64,000 nt of DNA, from positions 790,001-854,000 of the forward strand of contig NZ_CP044230.1 in assembly GCF_008727815.1 (NCBI RefSeq). The letters are read 5' to 3'. How positions within the stretch are numbered: the first letter of the stretch is position 1; the number at the start of each line of letters is the position of its first letter. Positions 42,010 to 64,000 of this stretch are shown here, piece by piece. The translations under genes and the position numbers were made by a program. Source of the DNA: Streptococcus sp. LPB0220 (lineage in GTDB: Bacteria; Bacillota; Bacilli; Lactobacillales; Streptococcaceae). The notes below the pieces were generated by a model, which made no database searches, was not told the DNA's origin, and saw nothing but the letters and a program-made list of their open reading frames with translations.

Positions 42010-42923
42010 GTTTTACGGTTCGTGTCAAAGAAGAATTATTGTCTCTCAAGCGATTTGAAAAGAGTGAATTGGCTGCCATTATCAAGATGTCTGGAAGTCT
42101 TGGAATTTCAATGGGGGGCTTGACGCTCTCGGTGACGACGGAAAATGCCAAGATCGCTCGCCATATCTATGAATTGTTGCATCATTTCTATGAGGCCAAA
42201 TCGGATATTCGCCACCACCAAAAAACCAACTTGAAAAAAAATCGTGTCTACACAGTATTCTTGGATGAAAAGGTGGAAGAGATTCTTGCTGACTTGCATT
42301 TGGCAGATGCCTTTTTTGGGATTGAGACAGGCATTGATGCTAGTGTTTTAGAAGATGAAGTAGCCAGTCGTGCTTATCTTCGGGGAGCTTTTCTGTCGAG
42401 TGGTTCCATCAAGGATCCTGAAAAAGGGAAGTACCAGCTGGAAATTCATTCTGTTTATACAGACCACGCGGAAGGAATTGCCCTTCTTATGCAAGGATTT
42501 TTACTAGATGCGAAAACCATCGAGCGGAAAAAAGGAGTGGTGACCTATCTGCAACGAGCGGAAGATATTATTGATTTTCTCATTGTAGTAGAGGCCATGC
42601 AAGCCATGCAGGAATTTGAGTCCATCAAGGTTATGAGAGAGACGCGTAATGACCTCAATCGGGCCAATAATGCTGAGATGGCCAATATCCAGCGCACGGT
42701 TACTGCTAGCATGAAAACCATTAATAATATTAGTAAAATTGTGGATACGGTCGGTCTAGGAAGTTTACCAAGTGATCTGCAAGAAGTTGCCTATATCCGG
42801 ATGAACCATCCAGATTATTCCATCCAGCAGATTGCAGATAGCTTGCAACAACCTATTTCAAAAAGCGGTGTTAACCACCGCTTGCGTAAGATCAATAAGA
42901 TCGCAGACGATTTAGACAAATAA
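42006..42923 (+). CDS. whiA: WhiA family DNA-binding protein
   Basis: A 305-residue protein with an N-terminal LAGLIDADG homing-endonuclease-like fold (catalytically inactive in the family) and a C-terminal helix-turn-helix ([22 protein letters not shown]). In Bacillus WhiA affects division and chromosome segregation. It is the last gene of the rapZ operon, and its stop codon leads directly into a terminator. Confidence 0.95.
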
Positions 42924-42941
42924 AAAAGGCCAAAGGCCTTT
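42922..42941. terminator. Terminator hairpin after whiA (left copy)
   Basis: A6-GGCC-AAA-GGCC-TTT starting in the whiA stop codon. The same sequence recurs at 43189-43211, flanking the structured repeat. Confidence 0.8.
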
Positions 42942-42965
42942 CATAATGAGGATAAAGTCTTTTTA

Positions 42966-43102
42966 AAAACTTTCCTTAGGTGAGTACGGACGTCAGCGAA
43001 CTTCATAGAAGTTCCATGACTTAGTTTTGAGCCTAATGTCTCAAAACTCCCGAGTGCCTGAAACGTAATGTTTCAGGCACTTTTCTCACAGCGGAAAGTT
43101 TT
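42966..43102. repeat. Structured intergenic repeat, copy 1
   Basis: A 137-base element closed by a perfect 10-bp stem (42966-42975 with 43093-43102). Inside are three hairpins: GTCA-gc-GAACTTC with its complement (42992-43020), GTTTTGAG/CTCAAAAC (43024-43047), and an 11-bp stem GTGCCTGAAAC (43054-43080). Copy 2 (59924-60061) keeps all helices with compensatory changes. AT-rich similarity to copy 2 continues to about 43167. It lies between convergent genes. This element accounts for most of the 289-base gap 42924-43212. Confidence 0.9.
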
Positions 43103-43188
43103 GTATTTTCTTGATTCATACTAAAAATAGGAACTCATTTTTACTTCTTTGCAGAATCGATTAACTTAAAATAGTTTGACTTCAATTT

Positions 43189-43211
43189 AAAAAAGGCCAA
43201 AGGCCTTTTTT
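43189..43211. terminator. Terminator of the reductase gene (right copy)
   Basis: A6-GGCC-AAA-GGCC-T6, identical over 20 bases to the hairpin at 42922-42941. It serves the minus-strand gene ending at 43213. Confidence 0.85.
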
Positions 43212-44181: not shown

Positions 44182-44296
44182 AGTATCTCCTTCAGGGTTT
44201 TCTTTGTTTCCATTGTATCATAAAATGGGAAGAATGAAAAAGTTGGAAAAAGAAATGATATGAAGGCTAGGAGGGCTAGAAAAGTTTCAAAAGATC

Positions 44297-44325
44297 TTGA
44301 CAGCGTCCTTAAAGTGTGATAAAAT
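44297..44325 (+). promoter_or_regulatory. Promoter of rpsU
   Basis: TTGACA (44297-44302), a 17-base spacer and TAAAAT (44320-44325) preceded by TGA. This is a strong SigA promoter. Confidence 0.85.
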
Positions 44326-44359
44326 TATTAAGATTTTAGGCTTGAAGGGAGTGAAAAAT

Positions 44360-59873: not shown

Positions 59874-59903
59874 AAAAGCTAGGAAATGATTCCTAGCTTT
59901 ATA
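59874..59903. terminator. Terminator after aatB (left copy)
   Basis: AAGCTAGGAA (59876-59885) pairs with TTCCTAGCTT (59890-59899) around ATGA. A near-identical hairpin lies at 60144-60167. Confidence 0.8.
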
Positions 59904-59923
59904 TTAAAGACAAAGTTATCTCA

Positions 59924-60061
59924 AAAACTTTCCTTAGGTGAGTACGGACGTCAGCGAACTTCTACGAAGTTCCATGACTTAGTTTTGAACCTAAGGTTTC
60001 AAAACTCCCGAGTGCTAGAAACATCACTGTTTCTAGCACTTTTCTCACAGCGGAAAGTTTT
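59924..60061. repeat. Structured intergenic repeat, copy 2
   Basis: A 138-base element with the same closing stem as copy 1 (59924-59933 with 60052-60061). Internal hairpins are at 59950-59978, 59982-60005 (GTTTTGAA/TTCAAAAC) and 60012-60039 (GTGCTAGAAAC and complement). Relative to copy 1, paired bases change together on both arms. AT-rich similarity continues to about 60116. It lies between convergent aatB and mntE and fills the 295-base gap 59874-60168 together with its flanking terminators. Confidence 0.9.
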
Positions 60062-60143
60062 GGTATACTTTTGATTCATTTTAAAAATTAGAAAATTTTT
60101 AGAGGATCAATTAACTTTTTTTATAAGGTTTGGCTGCTCTCTC

Positions 60144-60171
60144 AAGCTAGGAAATACTTCCTGGCTTTTTA
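60144..60171. terminator. Terminator of mntE (right copy)
   Basis: AAGCTAGGAA (60144-60153) pairs with TTCCTGGCTT (60158-60167), differing from the left copy at only three positions. Confidence 0.8.
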
Positions 60172-63796: not shown

Positions 63797-63922
63797 ACTA
63801 AAGCCAGTAAGCTAAGTCCACTGTTTCAGATTATAAATAATCAACATCTTTTCAGAAATCTAAAGTTATTACTGAATGAGACTATTGAAAAAAATATTTT
63901 GGAACTAGTGCAAAATAGATTG

Positions 63923-64000
63923 AGACTTTTCGCCGTGAGGAAAGCATCAGAAACGCATTAGTTTCTGGTGCTCGGTAGATTTGAGACGTAAGGATCAAAT
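63923..64000 (-). repeat. Structured intergenic repeat, diverged copy 3 (partial, reverse orientation)
   Basis: The reverse strand aligns with the 3' two-thirds of copies 1 and 2: CTCAC-GCG-AAAAG after the long hairpin GCACCAGAAAC...GTTTCTGATGC (63944-63971), and ATTTGA/TCAAAT (63979-63984 with 63995-64000). The sequence differs at many positions but the stems are kept. It is cut by the window end. The stretch 63797-63920 shows nothing else recognisable. Confidence 0.7.

Follow-up and report, generated by a model that had tools for sequence, protein, structure and literature searches.

The window analysed here, a stretch of 64,000 nucleotides from the genome of Streptococcus sp. LPB0220, contains two full copies of a folded intergenic repeat, which raises the question of what kind of element the repeat is. 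The preliminary description of this DNA had proposed either a structured RNA or a miniature element. Our results indicate that it is very probably an IS1182-family MITE that inserts into terminators, duplicates their stem-loops in doing so and carries the folded core as a separate and older cargo.

The folded core and its copies

Each core folds into a 10-bp closing stem, a 5-bp inner stem (GTGAG/CTCAC) and three hairpins, with fold energies at z = -8.85 for copy 1 and z = -9.49 for copy 2 that were reached by 0 of 200 dinucleotide shuffles in either case. A covariance model of the copies places both cores exactly where the preliminary description had put them (Table 1), and the closing stem and three internal hairpins it reported are present in the fold. 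The inner stem had been overlooked, and part of the block TAGGTGAGTACGGAC, taken to be unpaired, is therefore paired.

Table 1. Coordinates of the repeat copies and of the hairpins that border them in the window.
Feature	Position	Strand	Basis or remark
Folded core, copy 1	42966..43102	+	Genome 832966-833102; covariance model, fold energy, pairing counts
Folded core, copy 2	59924..60061	+	Genome 849924-850061; covariance model, fold energy, pairing counts
Diverged third core copy	63922..64000	-	Past the pcrA gene; cut by the window end, runs to genome 854059
Whole MITE, copy 1	42942..43187	+	246 bp, between duplicated hairpins; flank alignment, filled-minus-empty length
Whole MITE, copy 2	59900..60143	+	Flank alignment; one empty orthologous site by match spacing
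Left target terminator hairpin, copy 1 (TAAAAAAGGCCAAAGGCCTTT)	42921..42941		Identical to 43188-43208; single in empty sites
Right target terminator hairpin, copy 1	43188..43208		Flank alignment, empty-site comparison
Left terminator hairpin, copy 2	59876..59899		Flank alignment; terminator-like on the minus strand
Right terminator hairpin, copy 2	60144..60167		Flank alignment; terminator-like on the plus strand

BLAST found 58 matching pieces of the repeat in the 2.13-Mb genome, which has about 40 copies. The covariance model gave 56 hits; 12 of these duplicate a copy by reading it on the opposite strand, and some others represent one half of an interrupted copy. Forty places were read with their flanks and 30 full-length copies were aligned, the other 10 being partial, interrupted or too diverged. 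Two cores, at 1931540-1931860 and 1607720-1608031, are split by roughly 160 bp that do not belong to the repeat and that may be nested insertions.

The earlier claim that differences between copies fall in pairs that preserve the helices is upheld over these 30 copies: 97.1% of cells are paired, 22 of the 50 pairs show two-sided changes, and the covariation score of 0.189 compares with 0.075 in shuffles, none of 500 of which reached any of the measures. When partners were slid out of register, 3-7 two-sided pairs remained. Among 95 distinct rows from 40 other genomes, an alignment that leans towards the structure because it was fitted to the model, 47 of the 50 pairs covary (shuffle mean 37.3) with a score of 0.643 (shuffles 0.166). 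Of five measures, four were beyond all 500 shuffles and the fifth was matched in a single one. These statistics are pair counts set against shuffle and slide controls, neither of which fully models relatedness (the tree).

Terminator hairpins and IS1182-family partners

The core is the inner part of a longer element. Alignment of the flanks gives AGATTGAAGACAAAG as the left end and TTTGTCTACATTCTA as the right end. These are imperfect terminal inverted repeats, the right one a poor copy, and they bound a MITE of about 245 bp with no frame of at least 100 aa listed inside it. The preliminary description had delimited the core correctly and had missed both the full extent and the duplicated hairpins at its borders. 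Outside both ends of many copies stands the same terminator-like hairpin, which varies by locus. Local alignment of left with right flanks exceeded the 99th percentile of 400 mismatched-locus pairs in 16 of the 40 copies, mostly by matches of whole hairpins, and was not significant in the other 24. Where the left repeat is recognisable, a hairpin adjoins the left end in 17 of 28 copies; at the right end the count is 17 of 30, and the baseline is 19 of 800 random positions. The flank alignments place both window copies between two direct copies of a locus-specific, putative terminator hairpin, AAAAAAGGCCAAAGGCCTTT at copy 1 and AAGCTAGGAAATGATTCCTAGCTT at copy 2, where the right-hand hairpin differs at two loop bases and one stem base. 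At another locus (L019), the two duplicated hairpins differ on both arms with pairing kept, and duplicated hairpins seem to covary as well. Transposon-end remnants without a core were also observed in this genome, at 244737, 1495548 and 2052340.

Copy 1 lies between whiA and a gene for a pyridine nucleotide-disulphide oxidoreductase, and the nearest records at this site come from S. parasanguinis and close Streptococcus sp. strains, which places the window in that clade. In the S. parasanguinis clade (neighbouring protein 93-99% identical), 8 of 12 sites are filled, with intergenic regions of 249-293 bp, and 4 are empty (HSISM1, HMSC072G04, 886_SPAR and F0442), with 25-28 bp and one hairpin. 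Four of the eight filled records measure 292-293 bp, and subtraction of 25 bp leaves 267-268 bp, which is the 246-bp element plus a 21-bp duplication; in the other four (249-255 bp) the right end and the second hairpin are gone. Five outgroup species are empty and one record was not assessable. In five further relatives the flanks of copy 1 are 28-33 bp apart with one hairpin, compared with 290-297 bp in the query, while the remaining relatives with a match had one flank only, or flanks far apart, and were uninformative for this copy. One orthologous site of copy 2 is empty (G008), as judged by match spacing only (a gap of 39 versus 313 bp). Within the species, empty sites could also have arisen if the two hairpin copies recombined and removed the insert precisely. 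The presence or absence of the insert and the duplication of the hairpin suggest transposition, and the repeat can be regarded as the miniature element of the earlier proposal, being multi-copy, variably present among strains, bounded by IS1182-type terminal inverted repeats and inserted in a duplicated target.

Transposases matching PF13751 are present in 81 of 147 Streptococcus genomes. A profile search of the LPB0220 genome gave no PF13751 match, and therefore no resident transposase of the IS1182 type was found. From the many PF13751 matches, 30 loci were fetched and their flanks read; in 20 of them both ends were found, each with at most 2 mismatches to the MITE repeat, 1.5-1.7 kb apart. 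The left end CAGATTGAAGACAAAGTC is common to the IS1182 loci and the MITE, and the right ends have GACAAAC in common, read inwards. In the LPB0220 genome, allowing 2 mismatches, the end pattern occurs 46 times and the reversed pattern 12 times. The transposase of one partner (L078) was compared with the IS1182 model of NCBIfam, NF033551, and scored 443.9 bits (cut-off 270), in addition to matching PF13751 and PF05598. The MITE resembles the IS1182 family in its terminal inverted repeats and hairpin targets, and differs from its IS in having no transposase gene and in having a folded core that the IS loci examined do not have. Five words of the core were looked for in the 30 loci and all were absent, and the core as a part of the IS was rejected; the core may have been captured by the IS ends.

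Twelve of the 20 IS with both ends lie between direct hairpin copies of 20-38 bp, a length that tracks the hairpin. The first and last bases of the duplication pair with each other in 11 of these, and in the twelfth (L098) one base on each side is unpaired; the two hairpin copies of L088 and of L095 differ at one base. The other eight IS either have two unlike hairpins at their flanks or had no hairpin found on one or both sides, and at L094 the contig stops at the IS. We tentatively read the MITE copies and IS without a matching hairpin pair as products of decay or rearrangement. A hairpin adjoins at least one end in 19 of the 20 IS, compared with 11 of 800 random positions. At the level of sequence comparison, the relatives' sites without the insert have a single hairpin, and the 20-38 bp duplications of the autonomous relatives span the hairpin from one foot to the other.

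A DDE transposase normally generates a duplication of fixed length. Here the duplication has the length of the stem-loop, and the points of strand transfer are therefore placed at the two feet of the hairpin. We propose that the transposase recognises an extruded hairpin or cruciform and not a sequence, that the element ends would be joined at the two 5' feet of the stem-loop, and that repair would then copy the hairpin, giving one on each side. The MITE is probably mobilised in trans by an IS1182-family transposase, with the older folded core as its cargo. Such an insertion would keep a terminator on each side for the flanking genes and would put the insert in a poorly transcribed spot.

In the available part of PMC5678879, an attack on cruciforms has been proposed for IS1272. 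If the ends are joined to the 3' feet, the stem-loop is lost, which is what that element shows; if to the 5' feet, it would be duplicated, a route (pathway b) drawn there without an example. Judging from their flanks, the streptococcal elements are what pathway b predicts. IS1272 and TnSha1 of staphylococci also belong to the IS1182 family and target stem-loops, often transcription terminators, according to the sections of PMC5678879 and PMC4923244 at hand. In the first of these, IS1272 deletes or replaces the stem-loop without duplication, whereas the streptococcal elements duplicate it; replacement of the IS1272 type was rejected for them, as the stem-loop is on both sides in 16 of 40 MITE copies and 12 of 20 IS. 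The accessible text of PMC4923244 states that TnSha1 partially deletes terminator hairpins, and refers to a review for the targeting of palindromes by other members of IS1182; that of PMC10383233 names ISSmi2, found truncated in a pneumococcal island, as belonging to the IS1182 family. The literature consulted, which was without most subscription journals and ISfinder entries, contained no description of streptococcal IS1182 elements duplicating a stem-loop.

The core across Streptococcus

The core covariance model matches 127 of 147 Streptococcus genomes, LPB0220 included, in a survey with up to 22 matches listed per genome. A selection among the matches listed, 161 copies from 60 genomes chosen as those without saturated hit lists, was classified by gene context, taken crudely from the longest open frame within the 700 bp to either side, a rule that brings some strand errors. 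Of copies without recognisable transposon ends, among the matches listed, 107 of 130 lie between co-directional genes, 16 between convergent and 7 between divergent ones, a class that still includes decayed MITE copies, above all convergent ones; of those with at least one transposon end, again among the matches listed, 17 of 31 are co-directional, 12 convergent and 2 divergent. Four hits that are echoes of the opposite strand were left out of this count, and three of them remain in alignment A2 and one in A3.

The genes downstream of the core belong, by Pfam family, to purE, dnaK, glyS, rmlB, yhbY, purB and dnaJ where the core is in minus sense, and to rbfA and lplA where it is in plus sense; the precise names, and the upstream partners purD, grpE, glyQ, rmlC, infB and pdhD, were recognised by eye and are presumptive. 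The core often lies 14-44 nt ahead of the start codon, and the closing stem differs in sequence from gene to gene with complementarity kept. LPB0220 itself has a core before purE (44212-44343) and another before dnaK (385966-386079), neither with recognisable transposon ends and both at positions that recur in many other streptococci. Since such leader positions recur in many genomes, they are probably older than the MITE. No description of the core beyond SSRC8, and no report of it between operon genes, was found in literature that was without most subscription journals. Two cores are enlarged by about 50 bp, L169 (186 bp) and L181 (188 bp), and the extra sequence of L169 lies within the second hairpin and holds a further hairpin. 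To the right of the core at L154 is what we take to be a BOX repeat of the pneumococcal type, and the first 26 bases at L185, L208 and L224 are the same as the start of that sequence.

With the structure fixed and the classes summed, the core has 206 G-U cells, 29 of which belong to one doubtful closing pair in the LPB0220 copies, and 238 A-C cells (G-U on the other strand) among 9,055. In the SRP RNA of the same genus (RNAalifold, 25 distinct sequences, with 2 of 30 loci left out as cut by contig ends), G-U pairs account for 94 of 575 cells and A-C for 0 of 575. The wobble share is accordingly 2-3% for the core, with its fixed structure, against 16.4% for SRP RNA, the structures having been derived differently. 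Given so few wobbles on either strand, the core appears to evolve by Watson-Crick exchange with little strand preference. In copies that precede genes in minus sense, wobbles number 47 cells on the minus strand and 23 on the plus strand; in plus-sense operon copies there is no plus-strand excess (34 cells, against 46 on the minus strand). When RNAalifold chose the structure for each strand, the minus strand had the lower consensus energy in 4 of 5 groups, and its own structure contained 2.0-5.7% G-U. The lower minus-strand energies and the minus-strand wobble excess in leader copies are a hint of an RNA sense.

The preliminary description had seen in this pattern selection on RNA or DNA structure. 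That reading is supported in part: the covariation is strong, but the rarity of wobble is unlike the ordinary evolution of an RNA on one strand. The pattern makes simple one-strand RNA selection less likely, and the core may or may not be a structured RNA. As pairing is nearly pure Watson-Crick with no clear strand bias, maintenance at the level of DNA explains the pattern no worse than selection on RNA does. The core hairpins may be kept, at least in part, as DNA palindromes, either because the mobile copies need them or because arm-to-arm correction restores them. Correction alone seems insufficient, because junctions are conserved: divergence is 0.57 in hairpin loops, 0.12 in stems and 0.12 in junctions. 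Any function assigned to the core is an interpretation of such patterns; it might also act on the RNA of host operons.

Alternative explanations and significance

At the gathering score, an Rfam scan of the window returned only tmRNA and a tRNA. The family of the element had not been recognised with certainty, and Rfam provides no gathering-level match to it and one clear relative below threshold, SSRC8_2 (RF02616), on the opposite strand: 60.2 bits at copy 1, against a gathering score of 72. SSRC8_2 matches 13 of the 14 LPB0220 copies scanned (47.6-63.3 bits, all opposite strand), 8 of them over the whole model from terminator to terminator, as well as the core at each of the 8 loci scanned in leaders and operons (32-45 bits); no other Rfam family was convincing in the window, the LPB0220 copies or the leader and operon loci. 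It might be supposed from these matches that the copies are a family of small RNA genes, each giving an opposite-strand transcript that is folded, ended by a flanking terminator and acts in trans. In S. pyogenes, SSRC8 gave a Northern signal and RACE ends, and Table 4 of the same paper lists part of it as similar in many streptococci including S. parasanguinis, with no copy number or position in the portion available (PMC3675131). We consider this improbable, given that all 13 matches are below 72 bits, that wobble pairs are rare, that a promoter scan gave one site per window copy against 0.9 and 0.6 in shuffles, and that the repeat behaves as a mobile element does, with about 40 copies, presence in some strains and absence from others, IS1182-type ends, and duplicated hairpins that are specific to each locus. 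SSRC8_2 and the element have the same overall architecture and core region, and differ in that the element stays below threshold (at most 63.3 bits against 72) and SSRC8_2 is filed as a small RNA gene. Because its consensus has a terminator-like hairpin at each end, the family is probably at least partly the same mobile element, and mobile copies may be mixed into the RF02616 seed. Among mobile elements, the IS1202 family, with a founding pneumococcal member that makes a 27-bp duplication, has duplications of 16-28 bp in some of its members (PMC10132070, as far as its available text goes). It was rejected as the source, and an origin there is extremely improbable: after a search of 147 genomes and inspection of nine loci, the sole clear duplication, at L042, borders an element that starts with TGTCAATCGAAAATGACAATGTC, unlike the MITE ends, a ground that holds as far as this element stands for the family.

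Two further explanations concern the core rather than the MITE that carries it. Selection on RNA, with the core acting between cistrons across the genus as a leader or processing element that the MITE captured later, has a real but somewhat less than even chance of being correct. The core's repeated occurrence between genes of the same direction, in many cases 14-44 nt ahead of a start codon, speaks for it, as do the closing stem, which varies by gene yet stays complementary, and the minus-strand wobble of minus-sense leaders (47 cells against 23). Nevertheless, the core occurs in both orientations to transcription, plus at infB-rbfA and pdhD-lplA and minus elsewhere, the plus-sense class has no plus-strand excess (34 against 46), and wobble at 2-3% is far from the 16.4% of SRP RNA, a comparison between structures derived in different ways. 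Template switching, by which the arms of a palindrome are copied onto each other in replication with no selection involved, is rather unlikely to be the explanation. Stem variants private to single LPB0220 copies comprise 17 two-sided Watson-Crick changes and 23 one-sided ones, double changes thus being frequent even in single copies, and loops diverge freely (0.57) next to stems at 0.12; yet the junctions (0.12), which arm copying cannot protect, are conserved like stems, and the closing stem, with arms more than 110 nt apart, covaries too. A wider reading, somewhat less likely than not, is a genus-wide core that serves as a signal for mRNA processing or for balancing expression in operons, or as a DNA structure, and that was captured and spread into terminators by IS1182-family ends.

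Palindromic repeats between operon genes, in either orientation, are known from enterobacteria as REP or BIME, which depend on another type of transposase and behave differently towards their targets. The core is similar to these in its palindromic form and its intergenic operon positions in both orientations. BOX, RUP and SPRITE are folded intergenic repeats of streptococci as well, judged parasitic in the accessible part of PMC3049150; by its description they are rare beyond S. pneumoniae, except in S. mitis and for a BOX type in S. suis, while the core is in 127 of 147 genomes. What is new is an IS1182-family MITE that duplicates whole terminator hairpins and has a core that recurs between operon genes.

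Several implications follow for mobile elements and their hosts. In the duplicated hairpins there is evidence, at the sequence level, that transposition is aimed at a DNA structure, as the duplication equals the stem-loop and has no fixed length. This opens the cruciform-attack models proposed for IS1182 to testing in a simple assay. Insertion into terminators with their duplication would also explain how about 40 copies are accommodated in one genome, with a terminator left on each side. The Rfam family SSRC8_2 is in doubt as a plain small RNA gene. Most Streptococcus genomes examined have a folded element at recurring operon positions and, if our interpretation is true, the same fold would form the body of a mobile element whose insertion duplicates hairpins of any length, and would at the same time be a conserved component of host operons.
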